NCBI RefSeq assembly: GCF_002015045.1
Contig: NZ_MUXX01000022.1
Span: 1-35,169, forward strand
Reading direction: 5' to 3'
Length of the DNA stretch: 35,169 bases
Origin: Haemophilus paraphrohaemolyticus
Lineage (GTDB): Bacteria > Pseudomonadota > Gammaproteobacteria > Enterobacterales > Pasteurellaceae
Both the position numbers and the translations under genes were made by a program. The notes under the pieces were generated by a model that did no database searches, had not been told where the DNA came from, and saw only the letters and a program-made list of their open reading frames with translations. Position 1 is the first letter of the stretch; each line of letters starts with the position of its first letter. Below are positions 22,921-34,327 of this stretch, piece after piece.

Positions 22921-23005
22921 CCCCCTACGCTTGACAACCTCCTCTGTTGGGCGTAGGATATTTATCAAGTTCTTAGAGGGTCATAGCTCTAATTACTGGA
23001 AATTT
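22921..23005 (+). ncRNA. Candidate C4-type antisense RNA in the antirepressor leader
   Basis: Two hairpins follow each other directly after higA. Hairpin 1 has arms CCTACGC (22924-22930) and GCGTAGG (22951-22957), with an inner CAAC/GTTG stem and the loop CTCCTCT, which is complementary to Shine-Dalgarno sequences. Hairpin 2 has TTAGAG (22973-22978) and CTCTAA (22987-22992) around the loop GGTCATAG. This loop can pair with CTATGAACC at 23169-23177 with one bulged base. In phages P1 and P7, C4 RNA is cut from the leader of the icd-ant transcript and blocks antirepressor translation. The layout and loop content match; the RNA family itself was not searched. Confidence 0.6.
22931..22959 (+). promoter_or_regulatory. 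Sigma-70 promoter-like sequence upstream of the antirepressor
   Basis: TTGACA (22931-22936), a 17-bp spacer and TAGGAT (22954-22959) match a strong promoter. The inverted arms CCTACGC/GCGTAGG bracket it. If this promoter is real, hairpin 1 is a DNA operator; if hairpin 1 is RNA, transcription must start further upstream in higA. The two readings compete. Confidence 0.45.
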
Positions 23006-23224
23006 ACAAGAGCGGTATTCACATTCACCACCGTAAGCGTGATTTTTTATACCTGCAATATAGCTTATATAGTGTTTTGCTATATCAGCTCTAACAATTT
23101 ATTCAATGCCGAGTGGGCGACTAATACAACACCTTCAGGGAATACGTCCATCCGTTCTCTTGTACGGACTATGAACCACTTGGCAACCCTTTCAAATTTC
23201 ATAGAACAAAACAGGAGTAGGCTT

Positions 23225-23860
23225 ATGTCTAATCAAATCTCAACTTTCAACTTCGAAAATCAATCAATCCGCACAATCGCAATCAATAATGAACCTTGGT
23301 TTATTGCTAAAGATCTTTGCGATGCTATCAACATCTCCAACTATCGCGATGCAATCGAAAGATTAGATGAAGATGAAAAGGGTGTCGCTTTAACCGACAC
23401 CCTTGGCGGAAAGCAAGAGATGGCGGTAGTCTCTGAAAGCGGAATGTACACCTTAATCCTTCGCTGTCGTGATGCCGTTAAAAAAGGCTCAGTTCCTCAT
23501 CGCTTTAGAAAATGGGTAACAGCGGAAGTCCTCCCCCAAATTCGCAAAACAGGCAGTTATTCGCAAAACGTGGAAGAAATCAGACCGCTTGAAATCACGC
23601 TCAAAGTACAAATGCTTGATAACCTCTACTATATGGCAAAAAACGCAAGCGAACTTTGCCACCAATACCGCAAGATGATGAACGACATCATCAACACATT
23701 AAACATCGAATACTTCCGACCATCGAAACCTGATTACAAATATCAGTTGGTTTCAGAGATGCAATTCGCCCTTGATGATGTAGAAGTTATCCTAAAAACG
23801 CATACACGAGAGCAAACCGCAAAAAACATTGAGCTCGCCAGACTACGCCGCTCATTCTAA
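23225..23860 (+). CDS. BRO-family antirepressor
   Basis: The product has 211 residues. The BRO-N domain (about 5-108) is clear: IRTIAINNEPWFIAKDLCDA, then SESGMYTLILRCRDAVKKGS and FRKWVTAEVLPQIRKTGSYS. The rest (about 115-211) is helical and not assigned. Such proteins usually inactivate CI-type repressors or bind DNA in lytic induction. The ATG at 23225 was chosen because AGGAG precedes it and BRO-N begins there. The same frame stays open back to a TTG at 22931, but that lies inside the leader. The leader part of the frame could encode an Icd/Ash-like peptide (see findings). Confidence 0.88.
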   Translation: MSNQISTFNFENQSIRTIAINNEPWFIAKDLCDAINISNYRDAIERLDEDEKGVALTDTLGGKQEMAVVSESGMYTLILRCRDAVKKGSVPHRFRKWVTAEVLPQIRKTGSYSQNVEEIRPLEITLKVQMLDNLYYMAKNASELCHQYRKMMNDIINTLNIEYFRPSKPDYKYQLVSEMQFALDDVEVILKTHTREQTAKNIELARLRRSF

Positions 23861-25201: not shown

Positions 25202-25974
25202 ACTAAGTCCTTAGCCCAATCAGGCGTGTCTGTCGTGCCATAATCTCGCTCTGCAAAGCCAACGTGGGCGTTTGGCTTGGTAGAAGCGGTCGAATGTTGC
25301 GGATTTTTTGCAACAATGCCCGAGCTAGGCTGCTCGTCACGCCATTGCCAATCTGCCTTGAAGCCTTTCCAACCACGCTCAATCGCAATCGTGATCGCCT
25401 CACACAGAGAAATCCCTGCCTTGCCAGCCTCACGCTCAAAGCCTTTTATCGCCGTGTCTGTAATCGGGCATTTCAACGCCTTGCGATGTTTTACAAAATC
25501 CGTTGCTAGTTCGCCATCAATGCCGAATTTTTCCAAAATCTCAAAATCATCAGATTTTTTCGCCTTCGTGCGTGCGTGTGCGTTACTACCCGTTAGGGTA
25601 GTATTTTTGGTATTGGTATTTTGTTTAGTGGTATTTTGTGTGTGAGCTGAGTTCACAGGTACTTGTGAGGTAAGTTCACAGGTCGCAACTTTGTCAAAAT
25701 TAACCGAGAAAACATTCATTCCTCTGAAGCCTTTCGATTTAGTTAAAAGTCCAAGCTCAACAAGTTTTTCACAGGCGTCTATAACGCCTCTATTGCTTAA
25801 ACTGCACTTTTCCATCATTTGCGAAATTGAGACCGCATCTTTTTGTTTATTCCAGCCAGTAGTTTGACGGACAACTAGCATATAGCACTTAAATTCTGCA
25901 CCACTTAAAACGCTCATCAACTCATCAATTACCGCATTTGGAACTTGAAAACTGTTTGGGATAAATTTGCTCAT
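25198..25974 (-). CDS. O: Replication initiator, O-like
   Basis: The product has 258 residues. The N-terminal winged-helix domain (about 1-95) matches phage_rep_O: FIPNSFQVPNAVIDELMSVL, then CYMLVVRQTTGWNKQKDAVS and SNRGVIDACEKLVELGL. A low-complexity linker (about 105-140) rich in T, N and K is encoded by repeat-rich DNA. The C-terminal part (about 140-258) may contact the loader. In lambda the origin lies within O, and here the linker DNA is the likely place. It overlaps Rha by 4 bases and the DnaC-like gene by 4 bases. Confidence 0.85.
   Translation of the reverse strand: MSKFIPNSFQVPNAVIDELMSVLSGAEFKCYMLVVRQTTGWNKQKDAVSISQMMEKCSLSNRGVIDACEKLVELGLLTKSKGFRGMNVFSVNFDKVATCELTSQVPVNSAHTQNTTKQNTNTKNTTLTGSNAHARTKAKKSDDFEILEKFGIDGELATDFVKHRKALKCPITDTAIKGFEREAGKAGISLCEAITIAIERGWKGFKADWQWRDEQPSSGIVAKNPQHSTASTKPNAHVGFAERDYGTTDTPDWAKDLV
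25585..25683. repeat. Repeat cluster in the O-like gene; candidate replication origin
   Basis: The DNA holds a palindrome ACTACCC-GTTA-GGGTAGT (25585-25602), two copies of GGTATTTTGT (25615-25624, 25630-25639; 15-bp period) and two of AGTTCACAGGT (25650-25660, 25673-25683; 23-bp period). They encode the non-conserved linker of the initiator. Lambda ori has iterons and an AT-rich block at the same place in O. Confidence 0.45.
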
Positions 25975-26663
25975 TGCATCAACTCCGAAGCGTAACGATT
26001 TGCGATAAATGCCATTCCCTTACTGGTTACACGGGTTTGGGTAAAATTGTGACCGTGTTCTGCTGTGCCAGTCTTAACGGCAAACAGCTCACGCTCGTGA
26101 TATTTTTGATAAGGCAGCAAGTTATTTGATTGACGATACAAAATACGGTCTTCTACCAAGCGCTGAATCATTGCCTTTTCAGGCATTTTCAAAATCTTGG
26201 CGGTTTCTCGTAGTGATTTGGTTGTACCAACTTCAACATAGTGTTCAACAAATGCCGCTTTCGGTTTCATCCGCTGATTTTCCAACAACAACGCTTGTTT
26301 TTGCTCTTCCAAATCTGCTGCCAAACGCAAGGCTTCCGCAAAAGTCTGCGGTAATTGCACCGCTTGTTTTGCTTCTAACTCTTGCCAGCGGTCGATAATG
26401 CGTTTACGCAGTTTCACGTTGTAGCCAGCAATCAAAGTGAGTGTTAGGTCTTTTGGTAGGTAAAAGCACGGATAAGTGCGTCCCTTGCTGTCGGTGTAAT
26501 CTCCCCAAAAATGGGGAGATTGAATTTCAAGCTCTTCTAACATTAAACGCACATCACGCATAACGTGGTCGTGACGTTTTTCGCATAACTGAGCAATCTC
26601 AACGCTACTCATCGTTAAGCTTGCATTTTTTTCGGTAATCGGTAATAATTCTGTCGCTTTCAT
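25971..26663 (-). CDS. Rha-family regulator with C-terminal KilAC (antirepressor) domain
   Basis: The product has 230 residues. Residues about 17-100 are a Rha domain (SSVEIAQLCEKRHDHVMRDV, then YPCFYLPKDLTLTLIAGYN). Residues about 125-225 are a KilAC/ANT domain (VEVGTTKSLRETAKILKMPE, then TRVTSKGMAFIANRY). Proteins of this type act as antirepressors or as regulators in the early operon. Its start codon would be covered by the small plus-strand RNA predicted at 26656-26712. It is followed directly by the O-like gene. Confidence 0.88.
   Translation of the reverse strand: MKATELLPITEKNASLTMSSVEIAQLCEKRHDHVMRDVRLMLEELEIQSPHFWGDYTDSKGRTYPCFYLPKDLTLTLIAGYNVKLRKRIIDRWQELEAKQAVQLPQTFAEALRLAADLEEQKQALLLENQRMKPKAAFVEHYVEVGTTKSLRETAKILKMPEKAMIQRLVEDRILYRQSNNLLPYQKYHERELFAVKTGTAEHGHNFTQTRVTSKGMAFIANRYASELMQ
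26621..26649 (+). promoter_or_regulatory. pO-like promoter for a small antisense RNA
   Basis: TTGCAT (26621-26626), a 17-bp spacer and AATAAT (26644-26649) lie on the plus strand inside the 5' end of the Rha gene. A terminator follows about 40-60 bases later, and no plus-strand gene is in between. Confidence 0.55.
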
Positions 26664-26712
26664 TAAAGATTTATTCCTGTATAGAACCCGTGTTACTGCA
26701 CGGGGTTTTTTA
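26656..26712 (+). ncRNA. Predicted OOP-like antisense RNA
   Basis: The predicted RNA is about 57 bases. It starts near 26656 and ends at the hairpin CCCGTG-TTACTG-CACGGG (26687-26704) with a T run (26706-26711). It would be complementary to the Rha ribosome binding site and start codon, and its last bases reach the cII stop codon. In lambda, OOP RNA starts between cII and O, has the same orientation as cI, and is antisense to the end of cII. Position and direction agree here. Confidence 0.5.
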
Positions 26713-26985
26713 TTTGCCTACATTCTCAATGCCTTTACTCGCTAGGAGTTTTAGTGCATCAAGTTCTCTATCGCTTAAATTAGTTAATCCCTTCTCAACA
26801 ACCGTTAAGCCGAGATAATCCAAATAAGCACAAAACTTATCTAAATGTTCTGCTTTAAATCGGCAAATTGTGGCGGCATCTACGCCAATCGCTTCTGCCA
26901 CGTGGCAATCTTTAACCCTTACAGATTGATTCCGAATTGAGTCTGCAATTTTCATTGCATCTAACGTTAATTCCTTGCGTGCCAT
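26710..26985 (-). CDS. cII: CII-like transcription activator
   Basis: The 91-residue product has the lambda CII pattern (97 residues): an N-terminal helix with KELTLDAMKIADSIRNQSVR, a helix-turn-helix HVAEAIGVDAATICRFKAEH (about 28-48), and a C-terminal oligomerisation and degradation tail. CII activates the establishment promoter for the repressor by binding TTGC-N6-TTGC. A perfect copy of that site lies over its own start codon (26975-26988). It follows cro by 15 bases. Confidence 0.85.
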   Translation of the reverse strand: MARKELTLDAMKIADSIRNQSVRVKDCHVAEAIGVDAATICRFKAEHLDKFCAYLDYLGLTVVEKGLTNLSDRELDALKLLASKGIENVGK

Positions 26986-27007
26986 TGCGTTATACCTCCG
27001 CTATGCT
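26975..27007 (+). promoter_or_regulatory. pRE-like promoter with perfect CII site
   Basis: TTGC (26975-26978), six bases, then TTGC (26985-26988) is the canonical CII target. The six bases between them form the -35 region. Exactly 17 bp downstream lies TATGCT (27002-27007) as -10. Transcripts would run antisense through cro and into cI, as from lambda pRE. Confidence 0.75.
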
Positions 27008-27210
27008 TCGGGTGATGGGAAAATATCATCGAGGGAGCAAGACACTCCGTGTTGATTTAATGCTTTTACTAATTTTCTAGAATCCAACAGAGAAGGAATG
27101 CGTTTACCTGTTTCATAATTTGCGATCCTAGATTGCCTCCACCCTAAGCTTTGAGCGAGCTCTAGCTGTGTAATACCGATGTTTTTCCTTGCTTCAGCAA
27201 GATTATTCAT
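27001..27210 (-). CDS. cro: Cro-like repressor
   Basis: The 69-residue XRE-type protein has an HTH ITQLELAQSLGWRQSRIANY (about 13-32) followed by ETGKRIPSLLDSRKLVKALN. It is divergent from cI and first in the rightward (here minus-strand) early operon. It should bind the three ATTTAGT-containing operators and shut down cI and early transcription. The HTH core WRQSRIANYET is shared with the CI protein (WGQSRIANYET), so both probably read the same sites. Confidence 0.88.
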   Translation of the reverse strand: MNNLAEARKNIGITQLELAQSLGWRQSRIANYETGKRIPSLLDSRKLVKALNQHGVSCSLDDIFPSPEA

Positions 27211-27228
27211 AGAAACATCCTCATTTGT

Positions 27229-27286
27229 GATTATTTAGTATTTGATTAAATCACATTTAGTGTTTTATATCAACACATTTAGTGTT
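27229..27286. promoter_or_regulatory. Operator region OR: three operators at 22-bp spacing
   Basis: The core ATTTAGT occurs at 27233-27239, 27255-27261 and 27277-27283, each exactly 22 bp apart. Two copies are within the identical 13-mer CACATTTAGTGTT (27252-27264, 27274-27286); the third (next to cro) is degenerate. The 13-mer is an imperfect palindrome. The layout is that of three lambda operators on one face of the helix. Confidence 0.75.
27245..27273 (-). promoter_or_regulatory. pR promoter for cro and the early right operon
   Basis: On the minus strand, TTGATA (27268-27273), 17 bp and TTTAAT (27245-27250) form a strong promoter. The middle operator fills the spacer, so CI or Cro bound there would block it. 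Confidence 0.75.
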
Positions 27287-27316
27287 TTGTTTATGTATTG
27301 CGAGCCGTGATATATT
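27287..27316 (+). promoter_or_regulatory. pRM-like promoter for cI
   Basis: TTGTTT (27287-27292), an 18-bp spacer and TATATT (27311-27316) lie next to the operator nearest cI, as expected for a repressor-maintained promoter. The predicted start gives a leader of about 20 bases with AGGAGA before the cI ATG. Confidence 0.5.
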
Positions 27317-27341
27317 TATATCGTCAACTAGGAGAACCAAA

Positions 27342-28010
27342 ATGAGTAGTGTCGGAGAAAGACTAAAAGCCTTTAGAGAAAAGCTAGGCGTAAAACAGAA
27401 AGAATTTGCTGAACTCTGTGCGAAAGCAGATAAACGCGAAGATGTGAAGTGGGGACAATCTCGCATTGCGAACTATGAAACCAATAGTAGAACGCCAAGC
27501 CTCGAAGATATTGCGATTATTTCGCAAGTGTTAGGAATAGAGCCTGCTGTATTAGCTTTTAGTACAGACGAAATCGAAGTGGTAGGTAGACCAAAAGAGG
27601 GCGTTGTTGCAGTAGTAGGACAGGCTACAATGGGGAGGGAAGACCGTATCTATCTAGAAGAAATGCATACTGGCTATGTGCGTATTTTCAGCCAAGACCC
27701 ACAAGCCTATTGCCTAAGCGTGCGAGGTTCGAGTATGGAACCTCGTATCCACAGTGGCGAATATGTGCTTATTGAGCCCTCGGTGCGCGTGTGTAATGGC
27801 GATGATGTCCTTGTTCGTACGGTAGACGGGCAATATATGATAAAAATTCTCGAATATAAGCGAGATGGCGAATACCGTTTCTCTAGTATCAATCACGATC
27901 ATAAGCCCTTCAACCTGCAAGAAAATGAAGTAGAATGTGTTCACGCGGTTTCTGCTATTTTGAAACAATCACGCTTTATTTCGTTCGAAGAAATTAACGA
28001 TGAAGACTAA
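27342..28010 (+). CDS. cI: CI-type repressor with LexA-like autoprotease domain
   Basis: The product has 222 residues. The N-terminal HTH (about 5-65) contains VKQKEFAELCAKAD and WGQSRIANYETNSR. The C-terminal S24 peptidase has the catalytic serine S131 in VRGSSMEP and lysine K168 in QYMIKIL. It should therefore be cleaved with RecA help after DNA damage. The cleavage dipeptide is not an obvious Ala-Gly; the region is VVGQATMG (91-98). The ATG at 27342 follows AGGAGA; the open frame back to 27282 runs through the operators and is not used. Two accessory genes follow on the same strand. Confidence 0.92.
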   Translation: MSSVGERLKAFREKLGVKQKEFAELCAKADKREDVKWGQSRIANYETNSRTPSLEDIAIISQVLGIEPAVLAFSTDEIEVVGRPKEGVVAVVGQATMGREDRIYLEEMHTGYVRIFSQDPQAYCLSVRGSSMEPRIHSGEYVLIEPSVRVCNGDDVLVRTVDGQYMIKILEYKRDGEYRFSSINHDHKPFNLQENEVECVHAVSAILKQSRFISFEEINDED

Positions 28011-28037
28011 AATAGCAGTTGAATTTATTAGGTAGAT

Positions 28038-28781
28038 ATGATGAATAAAGTTACCTTGATTAGAGAAAGAACGGAGATGGGGGTTACGCAGCCCTTTATT
28101 TGCCAAACAGAAAATGAACAGTGGTTTGTGGTAAAAACCACGGCAATGATGCCAATCGCACAATTATTGGCAGAAGTCATTGGTTCTATGTTGGCTCACG
28201 AAATAGGCTTGCCTAGCCCTCAATTTTGCTTTGTGGATATTACAGAAAAATCAACACAATATGTCTCAGCACAATGGCGTTCAGCCTTACCACCTGGCTC
28301 TGCATTTGGCTCTGCGTTTATCAGAAATGCGAAAGTTGCCAAAACAGCTCAAGCAAAGAATGTGAATTACCTCTCTGAACCAGAACAAAAGCTACTTTAT
28401 ATGTTCGATCTCTGGATATTAAATTCTGACAGAACCGCCTCACAAATTGGCACAGGTAATATCAATCTTCTATTTGATGAAACGCAACAAAAAATTCTTG
28501 TTATCGATCACAACCTTGCTTTTGACGAAACCGCAATATTTAACGAACATATTTTTTCACCACAAAATCGCGATTGGGAATTAGACTGGGTAGATAAAGA
28601 GACCTTTACACAAAAAGCCATTGACACCTTAACTAAATTTGATCATATTTACCAAAGCATTCCTGACGATTGGTTTCCGCTTGATGATGAGGCGTTTCAA
28701 CAAATGGAAACAAAAATCAGAAAAATTCAGTCAATTTTGAATCGCATTAAAGAAGAACACTACTGGGACAACATCAAATGA
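28038..28781 (+). CDS. HipA-like kinase in the rexA position
   Basis: The 247-residue product has the short HipA-like kinase fold (HipA_2 type) without the N-terminal HipA subdomain. A candidate ATP lysine is K33 (WFVVKT). The catalytic loop is FDLWILNSDRT (D124, N129, D131-R132), followed by NINLL (141-145) and the metal-binding IDHNLAF (D157). HipA kinases phosphorylate glutamyl-tRNA synthetase or other translation targets; the substrate here is unknown. No HipB partner is adjacent. It starts 27 bases after cI and overlaps the DUF3037 gene by 4 bases (ATGA), so it is probably on the cI transcript and made in the lysogen. Confidence 0.82.
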   Translation: MMNKVTLIRERTEMGVTQPFICQTENEQWFVVKTTAMMPIAQLLAEVIGSMLAHEIGLPSPQFCFVDITEKSTQYVSAQWRSALPPGSAFGSAFIRNAKVAKTAQAKNVNYLSEPEQKLLYMFDLWILNSDRTASQIGTGNINLLFDETQQKILVIDHNLAFDETAIFNEHIFSPQNRDWELDWVDKETFTQKAIDTLTKFDHIYQSIPDDWFPLDDEAFQQMETKIRKIQSILNRIKEEHYWDNIK

Positions 28782-29593
28782 AACAACCTATTTTATACAG
28801 TTTTGTACGGTATCGACCATACTTTGAAACAGGTGAGTTTGTCAATGTTGGCTTGCTAATATGCGAACCTGAAAAAAGAAAACTGACCTACCGTCTTGTC
28901 AATAAAAACAACAAAAGAGTGAATGATTTCTTTTATCGCAGTAAATTATTTGAAAACATACACGACACGATTAGCGATGAACTTAATTATATTGTTAATC
29001 AGCAATTTAATTTTACTGCACAAGAAATGGCAACATTTTTCCACCACTACGTTGATGTAAAAGAAGGTATAGTACAATACAGCAATGCGATTGTGGGAAT
29101 GGTTGATGATCCGAAGGTTTATATCAATAACTTATACACAAAGTTTATCCAAAATGCCGGTGTAAAATCAGAAAGCCAAGAACAAACTATACTAAAGCAT
29201 TACAAAGCTTTATTTAAAGCAGATAACGACCAAATATTACTCAACTATAAGCAACATAGCGTGAAAGGTGAAATGGCAAAATTCACTTTGCCTCTTGCCC
29301 TAAAAAATCAAAATGACAAGCAAATACTCAAAGCCGTTAAACCACTTGCCTTTGATCAGCTTGAAAGTCCAAGTATGATAGAACATTGCGATAGTTGGGT
29401 AGCCAAAATCAATCGAGCAAATGAAGAAGAACTATTGAAAAAAGAGAATATCCTTTTTGCACTTGATACGCCAGACACAGCAAGTAAAACCAATATTCTG
29501 AATACCATTAAACGCACATTTGATAAGTTTAAAATTCAGCATATTGACTGGCAAGAAGATAAACAGCTGCTTAAATTTGCTAAAAACCTTTAA
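28778..29593 (+). CDS. DUF3037 protein in the rexB position
   Basis: The 271-residue product has the DUF3037 start YSFVRYRPYFETGEFVNVGL followed by LICEPEKRKLTYRLV. The remainder is helical and charged, without membrane segments. Lambda RexB is a membrane protein, so only the position is shared. DUF3037 genes are often found beside HipA-like kinase genes in bacterial genomes, which suggests a working pair (partner, substrate or antidote), but the function is unknown. The ATGA overlap indicates coupled, balanced synthesis. A strong terminator follows. Confidence 0.82.
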   Translation: MKQPILYSFVRYRPYFETGEFVNVGLLICEPEKRKLTYRLVNKNNKRVNDFFYRSKLFENIHDTISDELNYIVNQQFNFTAQEMATFFHHYVDVKEGIVQYSNAIVGMVDDPKVYINNLYTKFIQNAGVKSESQEQTILKHYKALFKADNDQILLNYKQHSVKGEMAKFTLPLALKNQNDKQILKAVKPLAFDQLESPSMIEHCDSWVAKINRANEEELLKKENILFALDTPDTASKTNILNTIKRTFDKFKIQHIDWQEDKQLLKFAKNL

Positions 29594-29598
29594 TACTA

Positions 29599-29626
29599 AA
29601 CCGCCCACCGAGGCGGTTTTCTTTTA
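29599..29626 (+). terminator. Terminator closing the cI - HipA-like - DUF3037 operon
   Basis: AACCGCC/GGCGGTT (29599-29605 and 29612-29618) with a 6-base loop is followed by a T-rich tract. It separates the lysogenic operon from pL. Confidence 0.9.
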
Positions 29627-29771
29627 CCTAAAATCCCCAAATTTACAAATTTCCTTTCAAATCTCACCGCTTATAGTTCAAAAAACAAGCAATCAAACAT
29701 TTTCCTAAATTTAAAAATCCTTGTAAAAACAAGCGTTTAATCACGAAATGAAATTTCTCTACAAAATAAAT

Positions 29772-29812
29772 CACAATCTGTTATTGAATTATAAATCACA
29801 ATTGGTGATAAT
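29772..29812 (+). promoter_or_regulatory. pL-like promoter with operators
   Basis: TTGAAT (29784-29789), 17 bp and GATAAT (29807-29812) form a promoter. Its spacer holds ATCAC-AATTG-GTGAT (29795-29809), a perfect interrupted palindrome. A related copy (CACAATCTGTTAT) begins at 29772. Both resemble the OR 13-mer CACATTTAGTGTT, so CI and Cro probably bind here too. It faces the recombination genes. Confidence 0.65.
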
Positions 29813-29854
29813 AACCTCATCAAACGAACTGAAAGACAGACAACAATCAGTTCA

Positions 29855-29870
29855 TGCTCTTTAAAAATTT
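29855..29870 (+). promoter_or_regulatory. boxA-like antitermination sequence
   Basis: TGCTCTTTAAAAATTT closely resembles the boxA of enterobacterial rRNA leaders (TGCTCTTTAACAATTT). It lies about 35 bases after the predicted pL start, where lambda has nutL. A clear boxB hairpin was not found. Confidence 0.6.
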
Positions 29871-29878
29871 GAAACAGG

Positions 29879-30376
29879 TTAGGGAAGATTGCGCTCGGTT
29901 CGTTCTAAAACAGCAGCGCGAATTGCGGGATTAAGTTCATAAACCCCACTTACCCAACTGAGAGAAATAAGCTTTTTATCAAGTAATTTCTCAACGGCAA
30001 GGACAACCCGTGGATCGTTATTAGGAACCTCACGATTTAACGCAACTGTCATCAGCACAGACCATTCCAAAGATGAAAGTGCTGAAAGCTGCTTGTGTGC
30101 TTTAGATTTAGATGCCCACTCATTGTTTAATTTACTCTTCAGAAAAGCGACTAGGCTACGCCAAACCAATAAGCTGAGCAGTGAAAAAAGTAAGATGGCT
30201 ATGTCATTTAAGCTAAGCCAAGTGGGGAAATTAGCAGGTGTTCTTGCAATAAAAAACTGTGAAAGAGCCTCTGGCATAAACAGGTAGAAAAGAAGCAGGA
30301 AGAATAACCACATTGTAAAGTCCTTGAGCAAAATTTTAGTTACCAATGTATTCAGTAGTTTTACAAAAACTTCCAT
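29879..30376 (-). CDS. SieB-like superinfection exclusion membrane protein
   Basis: The product has 165 residues. Two membrane helices are visible (about 21-43, FTMWLFFLLLFYLFMP; and about 57-73, AILLFSLLSLLVWRSL), followed by a soluble domain (TSLEWSVLMTVALNRE-like region and a C-terminal winged-helix-like part). This layout matches the SieB family of P22 and lambda, which aborts infection by other phages. The ATG at 30376 follows GAGGAAAACACC. It is read against pL from its own promoter. P22 sieB lies in the same pL region. Family identity is by pattern and position and was not searched. Confidence 0.65.
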   Translation of the reverse strand: MEVFVKLLNTLVTKILLKDFTMWLFFLLLFYLFMPEALSQFFIARTPANFPTWLSLNDIAILLFSLLSLLVWRSLVAFLKSKLNNEWASKSKAHKQLSALSSLEWSVLMTVALNREVPNNDPRVVLAVEKLLDKKLISLSWVSGVYELNPAIRAAVLERTERNLP

Positions 30377-30397
30377 GGTGTTTTCCTCATAAATTTT

Positions 30398-30442
30398 AAG
30401 TTGTGGCGAAAACATTATATTCCTCGAAGTTGTGGCAAACAA
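30398..30442 (-). promoter_or_regulatory. Promoter of the SieB-like gene with direct repeats
   Basis: On the minus strand, TTGTTT (30437-30442), 17 bp and TATAAT (30414-30419) form a strong promoter. Two copies of AAGTTGTGGC (plus-strand 30398-30407 and 30427-30436, 29 bp apart) flank the -10 and may be a regulator site. Confidence 0.7.
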
Positions 30443-30451
30443 GAGGCGAGC

Positions 30452-30477
30452 TTACCCCTCGTTAAAAGGGTAATTTT
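30452..30477 (+). terminator. Possible early terminator (tL1-like)
   Basis: TTACCC (30452-30457) and GGGTAA (30468-30473) can form a hairpin followed by TTTT. It would act on the pL transcript after it has crossed the sieB gene in antisense. The stem is short, so the call is weak. Confidence 0.35.
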
Positions 30478-30490
30478 CCCTAACCTGTTT

Positions 30491-30747
30491 TGAGTTTTAG
30501 ACAATTTGGACGAACACTCGCAGAAAGCTACCGTGCAAGCAGTTACCCGATGGTGAGGGTTAGTAATAGCGTGGACAATTAGACCCACCGCCCAACAAGA
30601 TGGATTAAAAGCCCCGAATTAACCGCCCAAACGATAGCCGAAAGCCTGTGTTTAGCCTGTATAGCGAGAAAGCAGTCGCACACCACGACGAAGCCCCTAG
30701 AACAGGCATTTAAAAAACTCTGATGAATCAGAGCGGGAGGTAAGACT
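30491..30747 (+). other. Gene-free leader before the first left-operon genes
   Basis: About 257 bases hold no convincing gene. One plus frame is open from 30484 to 30723 except for a single TAG at 30580, and it reads protein-like after that stop (PELTAQTIAESLCLACIARK). No good start is present, so it may be a decayed gene. A second option is structured RNA: a hairpin CTCTGAT-GA-ATCAGAG (30718-30733) ends one base before the Shine-Dalgarno GGGAGG of the next gene. Confidence 0.4.
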
Positions 30748-33556: not shown

Positions 33557-34327
33557 ATGACACAGAAAAAATACGAATTACTTAAAGACGATACTATTAC
33601 TGCACCAAACGGAAAGACACTCTACCGCATTAAAGCCCTTATTGATTTTGGTGTAGTTGTAGCAGGCTCTCTCGGTGGCTATATCGAAAAAGAAGATAAC
33701 CTAGCTCATACTGGCAATGCTTGGGTGTATGGCAATGCTCGGGTGTCTGGCAATGCTGAGGTGTATGGTGATGCTCGGGTGTCTGGTAATGCTCGGGTGT
33801 ATGGTGATGCTCGGGTGTATGGTAATGCTCGGGTGTATGGTAATGCTCGGGTGTATGGTGATGCTCGGGTGTCTGGCAATGCTCGGGTGTCTGGCAATGC
33901 TGAGGTGTCTGGTGATGCTGAGGTGTATGGTGATGCTGAGGTGTATGGTGATGCTCGGGTGTCTGGTGATGTTCGGGTGTCTGGTGATGTTCGGGTGTAT
34001 GGTAATGCTCGGGTGTATGGTAATGCTTGGGTGTATGGCAATGCTCGGGTGTCTGGCAATGCTGAGGTGTCTGGTGATGCTGAGGTGTATGGCAATTCCG
34101 ATCTCGTTTGGTTTTCAAAAGTGGGAACAGAGCAAGGCACACTTACCGTTTATAAATCCAAAAATGGCTCATTACTTGCCACTCGTGGTTGTTTTAGTGG
34201 AACGGTCGATGAGTTTTTAGCGAAATCAGCAAAAGTTCACAATGAACGAATCAAACGAGAATACCAGTTACTCATTGAAGTCGCAAAATCTTGCCTTCTT
34301 GGAGAAAGCTATGTACCTACTTTTTAA
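33557..34327 (+). CDS. Hexapeptide-repeat (left-handed beta-helix-like) protein
   Basis: The product has 256 residues. The N-terminal cap (1-52, YELLKDD, LYRIKALIDFGVVVAGSLGG) is the conserved head of a phage family that also resembles the start of E. coli YdcK. Residues 53-178 are 21 hexapeptides G-[ND]-[AV]-[REW]-V-[YS], a pattern expected to form a beta-helix with three turns per coil. A C-terminal domain (about 179-256) is not repetitive (FSKVGTEQGTLTVYKSKNGS). No acetyltransferase residues are seen. The function is unknown. It is preceded by a terminator and AAGGAAAC. Confidence 0.85.
   Translation: MTQKKYELLKDDTITAPNGKTLYRIKALIDFGVVVAGSLGGYIEKEDNLAHTGNAWVYGNARVSGNAEVYGDARVSGNARVYGDARVYGNARVYGNARVYGDARVSGNARVSGNAEVSGDAEVYGDAEVYGDARVSGDVRVSGDVRVYGNARVYGNAWVYGNARVSGNAEVSGDAEVYGNSDLVWFSKVGTEQGTLTVYKSKNGSLLATRGCFSGTVDEFLAKSAKVHNERIKREYQLLIEVAKSCLLGESYVPTF
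33713..34090 (+). repeat. 21 tandem 18-bp repeats inside the hexapeptide gene
   Basis: Each 18-bp unit reads GG[C/T] [A/G]AT G[C/T]T then CGG, GAG or TGG, then GTG T[A/C]T. Differences are restricted to these positions. No indels occur in 378 bp. The array has no stop in any of the six frames. Confidence 0.95.

Follow-up and report, generated by a model that had tools for sequence, protein, structure and literature searches.

A HipAD kinase and DUF3037 gene pair behind the phage repressor of a Haemophilus paraphrohaemolyticus prophage, a probable anti-phage toxin–antitoxin module

The window analysed here, a stretch of 35,169 nucleotides from Haemophilus paraphrohaemolyticus (contig NZ_MUXX01000022.1), is a temperate phage genome. 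Genes for the terminase large subunit, portal, head protease, tape measure and tail assembly lie on its minus strand, and genes for Erf-like annealing, exonuclease and single-strand binding (SSB) proteins on its plus strand. The immunity region, at 26.7–29.6 kb, is of the lambda type, with CII-like and Cro-like genes read leftward and an HTH/Peptidase_S24 repressor gene read rightward, followed by genes for a HipA-like kinase and a DUF3037 protein (HipD). The features of the region are as follows.

26710..26985, minus strand: CII-like protein (Phage_CII, E 3.1e-4, 21.4 bits against a cut-off of 21.3)
27001..27210, minus strand: Cro-like HTH protein, divergent from cI
27251..27263, no strand: operator-like palindrome WCACN5GTGW, cro/cI intergenic region
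27273..27285, no strand: operator-like palindrome WCACN5GTGW, cro/cI intergenic region
27342..28010, plus strand: cI-type repressor, first gene of the unit (Pfam HTH and Peptidase_S24; a longer GTG-started ORF runs from 27282)
28041..28781, plus strand: HipA_2 kinase (HipA of HipAD, PDC-M66A, phrog_3162), probable toxin (alternative ATG at 28038; model pLDDT 92.3)
28778..29593, plus strand: DUF3037 protein (HipD, PDC-M66B, phrog_5137), probable antitoxin (model pLDDT 87.7, pTM 0.53)
29598..29619, plus strand: intrinsic-terminator-like stem-loop with T-rich tail, end of the unit
29784..29812, plus strand: pL-like promoter TTGAAT-17-GATAAT, 5' of the Erf, exonuclease and SSB genes (a consensus match only, equally frequent in shuffled sequence)
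29796..29808, no strand: operator-like palindrome within the pL-like promoter

An earlier note, made from the letters of this DNA, had placed two genes behind cI on the same strand, in the slot that holds rexAB in lambda, with the second gene overlapping the first and a terminator closing the unit before pL; this anatomy holds throughout. The kinase ATG at 28041 follows the repressor stop by 30 bp, the kinase stop and the HipD start overlap in the ATGA at 28778–28781, and the stem-loop at 29598–29619 is the longest of five terminator-like sites in 27000–30500, a region in which shuffles yield 2.4. Similar hairpin sequences (ACCGCC...GGCGGT) are readable by eye 3' of other copies of the pair. 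With the Erf, exonuclease and SSB genes 3' of the unit, the pair sits between cI and the pL operon, the pL promoter itself being a consensus match. The span given in the note, 28038..29593, does contain both genes, but its first position is probably not the start codon, because 16 of the 20 other aligned kinases begin at the second Met (28041), the remaining four carrying N-terminal extensions.

Further features lie beyond the unit. On the minus strand at 29879–30379, opposing the pL-like unit, a 166-aa membrane-like protein with hydrophobic stretches is encoded, which matches phrog_37512 (unknown function, E 3e-26) and no Pfam family above cut-off. To the eye it looks like a SieB-type exclusion protein, a likeness that Pfam does not bear out, and its position suggests another exclusion gene. 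The 33 bp at 30414–30446 are identical to an unannotated place in five Mannheimia haemolytica phage records, at the start of the minus-strand membrane-like gene. At 33557–34327, a 256-aa protein is encoded in which a six-residue G[DN]A-x-V repeat recurs in long series; owing to the repeat, three other frames stay open there over 144–167 aa. Within this gene, 237 bp (33711–33947) share 86% identity with a part of the Streptococcus phage record Javan174 that carries a glycerol kinase annotation.

A Pfam HipA_2 match (E 2.6e-75, residues 6–246) covers almost all of the kinase, which also matches PADLOC family PDC-M66A (E 1.5e-18) and whose predicted structure resembles PI4KII, CtkA and HipA/HipT. 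In an alignment of 24 kinases, whose identity to the window kinase goes down to 27%, residues K32, E45, D123, N128, D130, N140, N142 and D156 (numbered from 28041) are identical in all 24. Four of these, D123, N128, D130 and D156, are the catalytic-loop and metal-site residues that had been read as intact under the numbers D124, N129, D131 and D157. The kinase was also said to have no HipB partner, and indeed the adjacent HTH gene is the S24 repressor, while the Cro-like and CII-like genes are on the other strand. Membership of HipBA or HipBST was rejected: those systems possess HipB or HipS, neither of which is encoded next to the window pair, N-subdomain 1 is absent, and only the short HipA_2 kinase domain matches. 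The suggestion that the kinase acts on a translation factor has so far found no support.

In HipD, the DUF3037 match occupies the first half (E 5.3e-18, residues 7–123), and PADLOC assigns the protein to PDC-M66B (E 7.8e-17). The C-terminal half of the model shows a weak likeness to restriction-endonuclease-like folds, at a level barely above the usual background. A PD-(D/E)xK nuclease motif was considered there and rejected, since the invariant Lys of strand three has no acidic residue two positions ahead of it: K188 is conserved in 24 of 24 sequences, and position 186 is acidic in none of the 24. Compared by sequence with solved structures, the HipD profile reached a best E of 0.15, and hhalign found no relation to the DUF1828 protein of a related phage (L072).

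Both proteins match PADLOC candidate PDC-M66 (families PDC-M66A and PDC-M66B), which corresponds in the current literature to HipAD (DS-6), a name attributed by citing papers to Brenes and Laub (2025). According to the DefensePredictor study, DS-6 of E. coli consists of a HipA-related kinase and a partner with DUF3037 and DUF1829 domains, provides anti-phage defence, and loses it when a predicted catalytic kinase residue is changed; AlphaFold3 predicts contacts between kinase and partner and, somewhat more weakly, between the partner (DS-6B) and DNA (PMC13092281). A HipA/DUF3037 pair beside Retron-Sda1 is reported to defend against Bas51 without the retron; in the Sda1 operon, defence is abolished when the kinase is lost, whereas cells suffer toxicity when DUF3037 is lost (PMC12548924). 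In Escherichia phage PhiR5_1 (PV340545), cI, 'HipA toxin', 'HipD antitoxin', Kil, Gam and Bet are annotated in this order. Our assignment is made on the PADLOC profile matches and the comparison with PhiR5_1, the DS-6 and Sda1 pairs being likened by description.

The window pair shares with HipAD of E. coli the order of a HipA-like kinase and then a DUF3037 protein, in PhiR5_1 also directly behind cI. It differs in that the PhiR5_1 proteins are only 36–40% identical to its own, its nearest relatives are in Pasteurellaceae, and DUF1829 is not detectable in its HipD (Pfam, E 0.1); the domain was not detected in HipD of PhiR5_1 either (Pfam, E 0.01). The Sda1 pair comprises the same two kinds of gene but sits in a retron operon, whereas the window pair lies behind a phage repressor (PMC12548924). 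This latter position is shared with lambda rexAB, RexABpp of P. putida (PMC12894663) and BstA (PMC8585504), defence cargoes thought to share the repressor transcript; P. putida RexAB is placed behind a CI-like gene, two genes further on (PMC12894663), and the region behind cI is described as a hotspot that includes rexAB and bstA (PMC8585504). The protein families are nevertheless different, and homology to RexAB was rejected on Pfam, PADLOC and PHROG scans of the pair. The term DUF3037 is absent from a phylogeny paper on HipA (PMC8262856), and among the titles and abstracts listed in a limited literature search, no paper was plainly on Pasteurellaceae prophage copies. The window pair is thus a prophage copy of HipAD, a system already described, in an already known cargo slot. 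The earlier view of a two-part toxin/partner exclusion system agrees with what DS-6/HipAD (PMC13092281) and the Sda1 pair (PMC12548924) are reported to be.

The two genes travel together. Viral contigs were scanned with the DUF3037 protein, and all 29 that matched have the kinase gene just upstream of DUF3037; in one contig (L004) both proteins are the same as in the window. The observed pair is real, and such recurrence is not a product of chance. Scanned likewise, bacterial and archaeal genomes contain 24 DUF3037 loci, with an adjacent kinase in 20, two of them partial (L053, L066), and none detected in L062, L065, L068 and L069. These counts bear out a conserved linkage of HipA_2 and DUF3037, for which a search across prophages had been proposed. 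The L053 kinase retains its C-terminal part only, and stops occur within the stretches tried in L054 (kinase) and L055 (DUF3037). Plasmids carry the pair as well, with 16 of 20 matching records annotated with both genes and four without annotation there. Some distant copies, mostly Verrucomicrobial, have a gene for a TIR (L063, L064), macro-domain (L066, L067) or Fic (L057) protein immediately upstream of the kinase. These domains are NAD- or nucleotide-linked, so those copies may be larger systems with HipAD as one arm.

The 67 kinase-bearing sequences, window and duplicate loci included, fall into 35 non-redundant groups, and an HTH or S24 gene is directly upstream of the kinase in 16 of them. 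In 14 groups a repressor of 218–254 aa ends 30–122 bp before the kinase, with an S24 domain in all 14 (and no HTH match in L028 and L029); an HTH protein takes this place in L002 and a short S24 fragment in L055. One extra ORF separates repressor and kinase in three groups (L025, L026, L030), and an HTH-S24 repressor lies about 1 kb upstream in two (L059, L061). The repressor slot is not required for the pair, since 14 of the 35 groups (L050–L054, L056–L058, L060, L063, L064, L066, L067, L070) show no repressor among the nearest upstream genes, as searched by tblastn with two cI proteins and, in each group, by Pfam on one ORF close upstream. Other prophage sites are used too, because the L052 copy adjoins a phage capsid gene.

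The slot itself is a mosaic, in which the same or near-identical cargo stands under repressors only 62–63% identical, and near-identical repressors precede other cargo or none. Loci L014 and L021 have identical kinases and identical DUF3037 proteins behind repressors of 63% identity; in L023 and L033 the cargo is 100% and 99% identical and the repressors 62%; L021 and L033, conversely, have repressors 99% identical and kinases 91% identical. The DNA of L014 and L021 is 39–53% identical in the interval that begins about 1050 bp and ends about 450 bp ahead of the kinase start, and 97–100% identical from that point through the cargo. The break consequently falls inside the repressor gene: its DNA-binding half has been exchanged, and the two loci agree in the S24 half and in the cargo. 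Among 5426 E. coli genomes, 283 contain 80% or more of the cI-hipA-hipD block and 2192 give some match; of 25 records taken from across the ranking, 21 match only in cI. Seven E. coli slots were read, and they hold no annotated gene (three), two hypothetical genes (one), a hypothetical and an ASCH gene (one), ImmA/IrrE and DUF4411 (one) or HipAD (one). Phage L072, with a repressor about 41% identical to that of the window, carries cargo matching PADLOC candidates PDC-S22 and PDC-M24B, and L073 and L074, with related repressors, carry cargo genes lacking a clear defence match. The order at L072:5713-8702 is a KilA-N protein (PDC-S22), an unmatched 180-aa protein, a DUF1828 protein (PDC-M24B) and two small genes that look hicA/hicB-like by eye, possibly a defence cluster in the same slot.

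Judged from its anatomy, the pair is likely to be expressed together with cI from the repressor transcript. No promoter-like site was found on the plus strand in 27000–28620; this is weak evidence, because the same scan found none for cI itself, and across the whole stretch such sites are no commoner than in shuffles. Inside the kinase gene, TTGACA-17-CATATT (28621–28649, plus strand) agrees with the consensus at 10 of 12 positions, at a frequency equalled in shuffles, and could be a candidate promoter giving extra HipD alone. The palindrome WCACN5GTGW, a pattern picked after reading the sequence, occurs three times in the window, against 1.49 expected by chance, and 20 of 100 shuffles reach three; two matches are between cro and cI and one within the pL-like promoter. 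L047, whose repressor is 60–61% identical, also has three, flanking the unit on either side, a count attained by 2 of 200 shuffles; L007 has no match. A general operator test covered 12 loci, and in 10 of them the locus's own region pair was equalled by one or more of its 11 controls; controls scored as well in 1 of 11 cases for the window, 8 of 11 for L014 and 11 of 11 for L023, and only L001 and L030 beat every control. Only the palindrome, then, speaks for putative operators bracketing the unit, the general test being weak. The window also encodes a Rha/KilAC antirepressor (25971–26663, minus strand) and a second, Ant-type antirepressor (22931–23860, plus strand), which would be relevant if antitoxin supply were tied to cI.

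Taken with the anatomy, motifs and linkage observed in this copy, the published relatives lead us to read the pair as a prophage-borne HipAD (PDC-M66, DS-6) anti-phage toxin–antitoxin module, with a probability of about 0.82; by analogy with those relatives, the kinase would be a toxin held by HipD and freed on infection to stop growth. Its expression, activity, trigger and target we infer as follows. The lysogen's repressor transcript would supply the kinase, and the ATGA overlap would couple translation of HipD to that of the kinase, so that HipD could keep the kinase inactive. Infection by another phage would upset the complex, and the freed kinase would phosphorylate some essential target, halting growth before the infecting phage multiplies. 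Of the roles of sensor, substrate or antidote offered earlier for DUF3037, that of antidote is favoured by the toxicity of DUF3037 loss in the Sda1 relative. In a more specific version, which we consider unlikely, HipD would be an antitoxin responsive to DNA, its scaffold a restriction-endonuclease-like domain that is catalytically dead, and would be drawn off the kinase by foreign phage DNA or its processing. In this version, since kinase and HipD would both be made from the repressor transcript, an infecting phage inactivating the repressor, by an antirepressor or through SOS, would in addition cut the antitoxin supply and make the repressor part of the trigger.

The probable tie of both proteins to the repressor transcript would also suit a plain addiction or lysogeny-maintenance module, in which prophage loss, or shut-off of that transcript on induction, frees the kinase and protection against other phages is incidental. 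Sda1 toxicity and the plasmid-borne pairs fit such a module too, but both published relatives are reported to defend against phages, the slot of the related phage L072 holds other candidate defence families, and some copies stand outside any repressor unit; we hold it to be improbable. The same toxicity, which fits an inhibitor, makes it highly improbable that DUF3037 is instead a sensor or activator, one that switches on an otherwise idle kinase after binding phage DNA or protein. The fold of the C-terminal half of HipD and the published AlphaFold3 models, which place DNA on DS-6B, would suit that role, but the fold match barely exceeds background. That the pair is decayed or silent cargo with no present role is hardly credible: relatives such as L053, L054 and L055 look broken, but the two genes of the window have their full length, keep the conserved motif residues and retain the ATGA overlap, with a terminator-like site behind them.

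Read as a HipAD module, the pair widens the range of a system described in E. coli: a set of Pasteurellaceae-type prophages has it too, at the position that rexAB takes in lambda. Cargo of this kind can persist while the DNA-binding half of the repressor is swapped, and related repressors carry other cargo, which recommends the slot behind cI for searches for defence genes. With these phages, a set of lysogens also exists in nature in which to study how an induced prophage withstands the toxin that it encodes.
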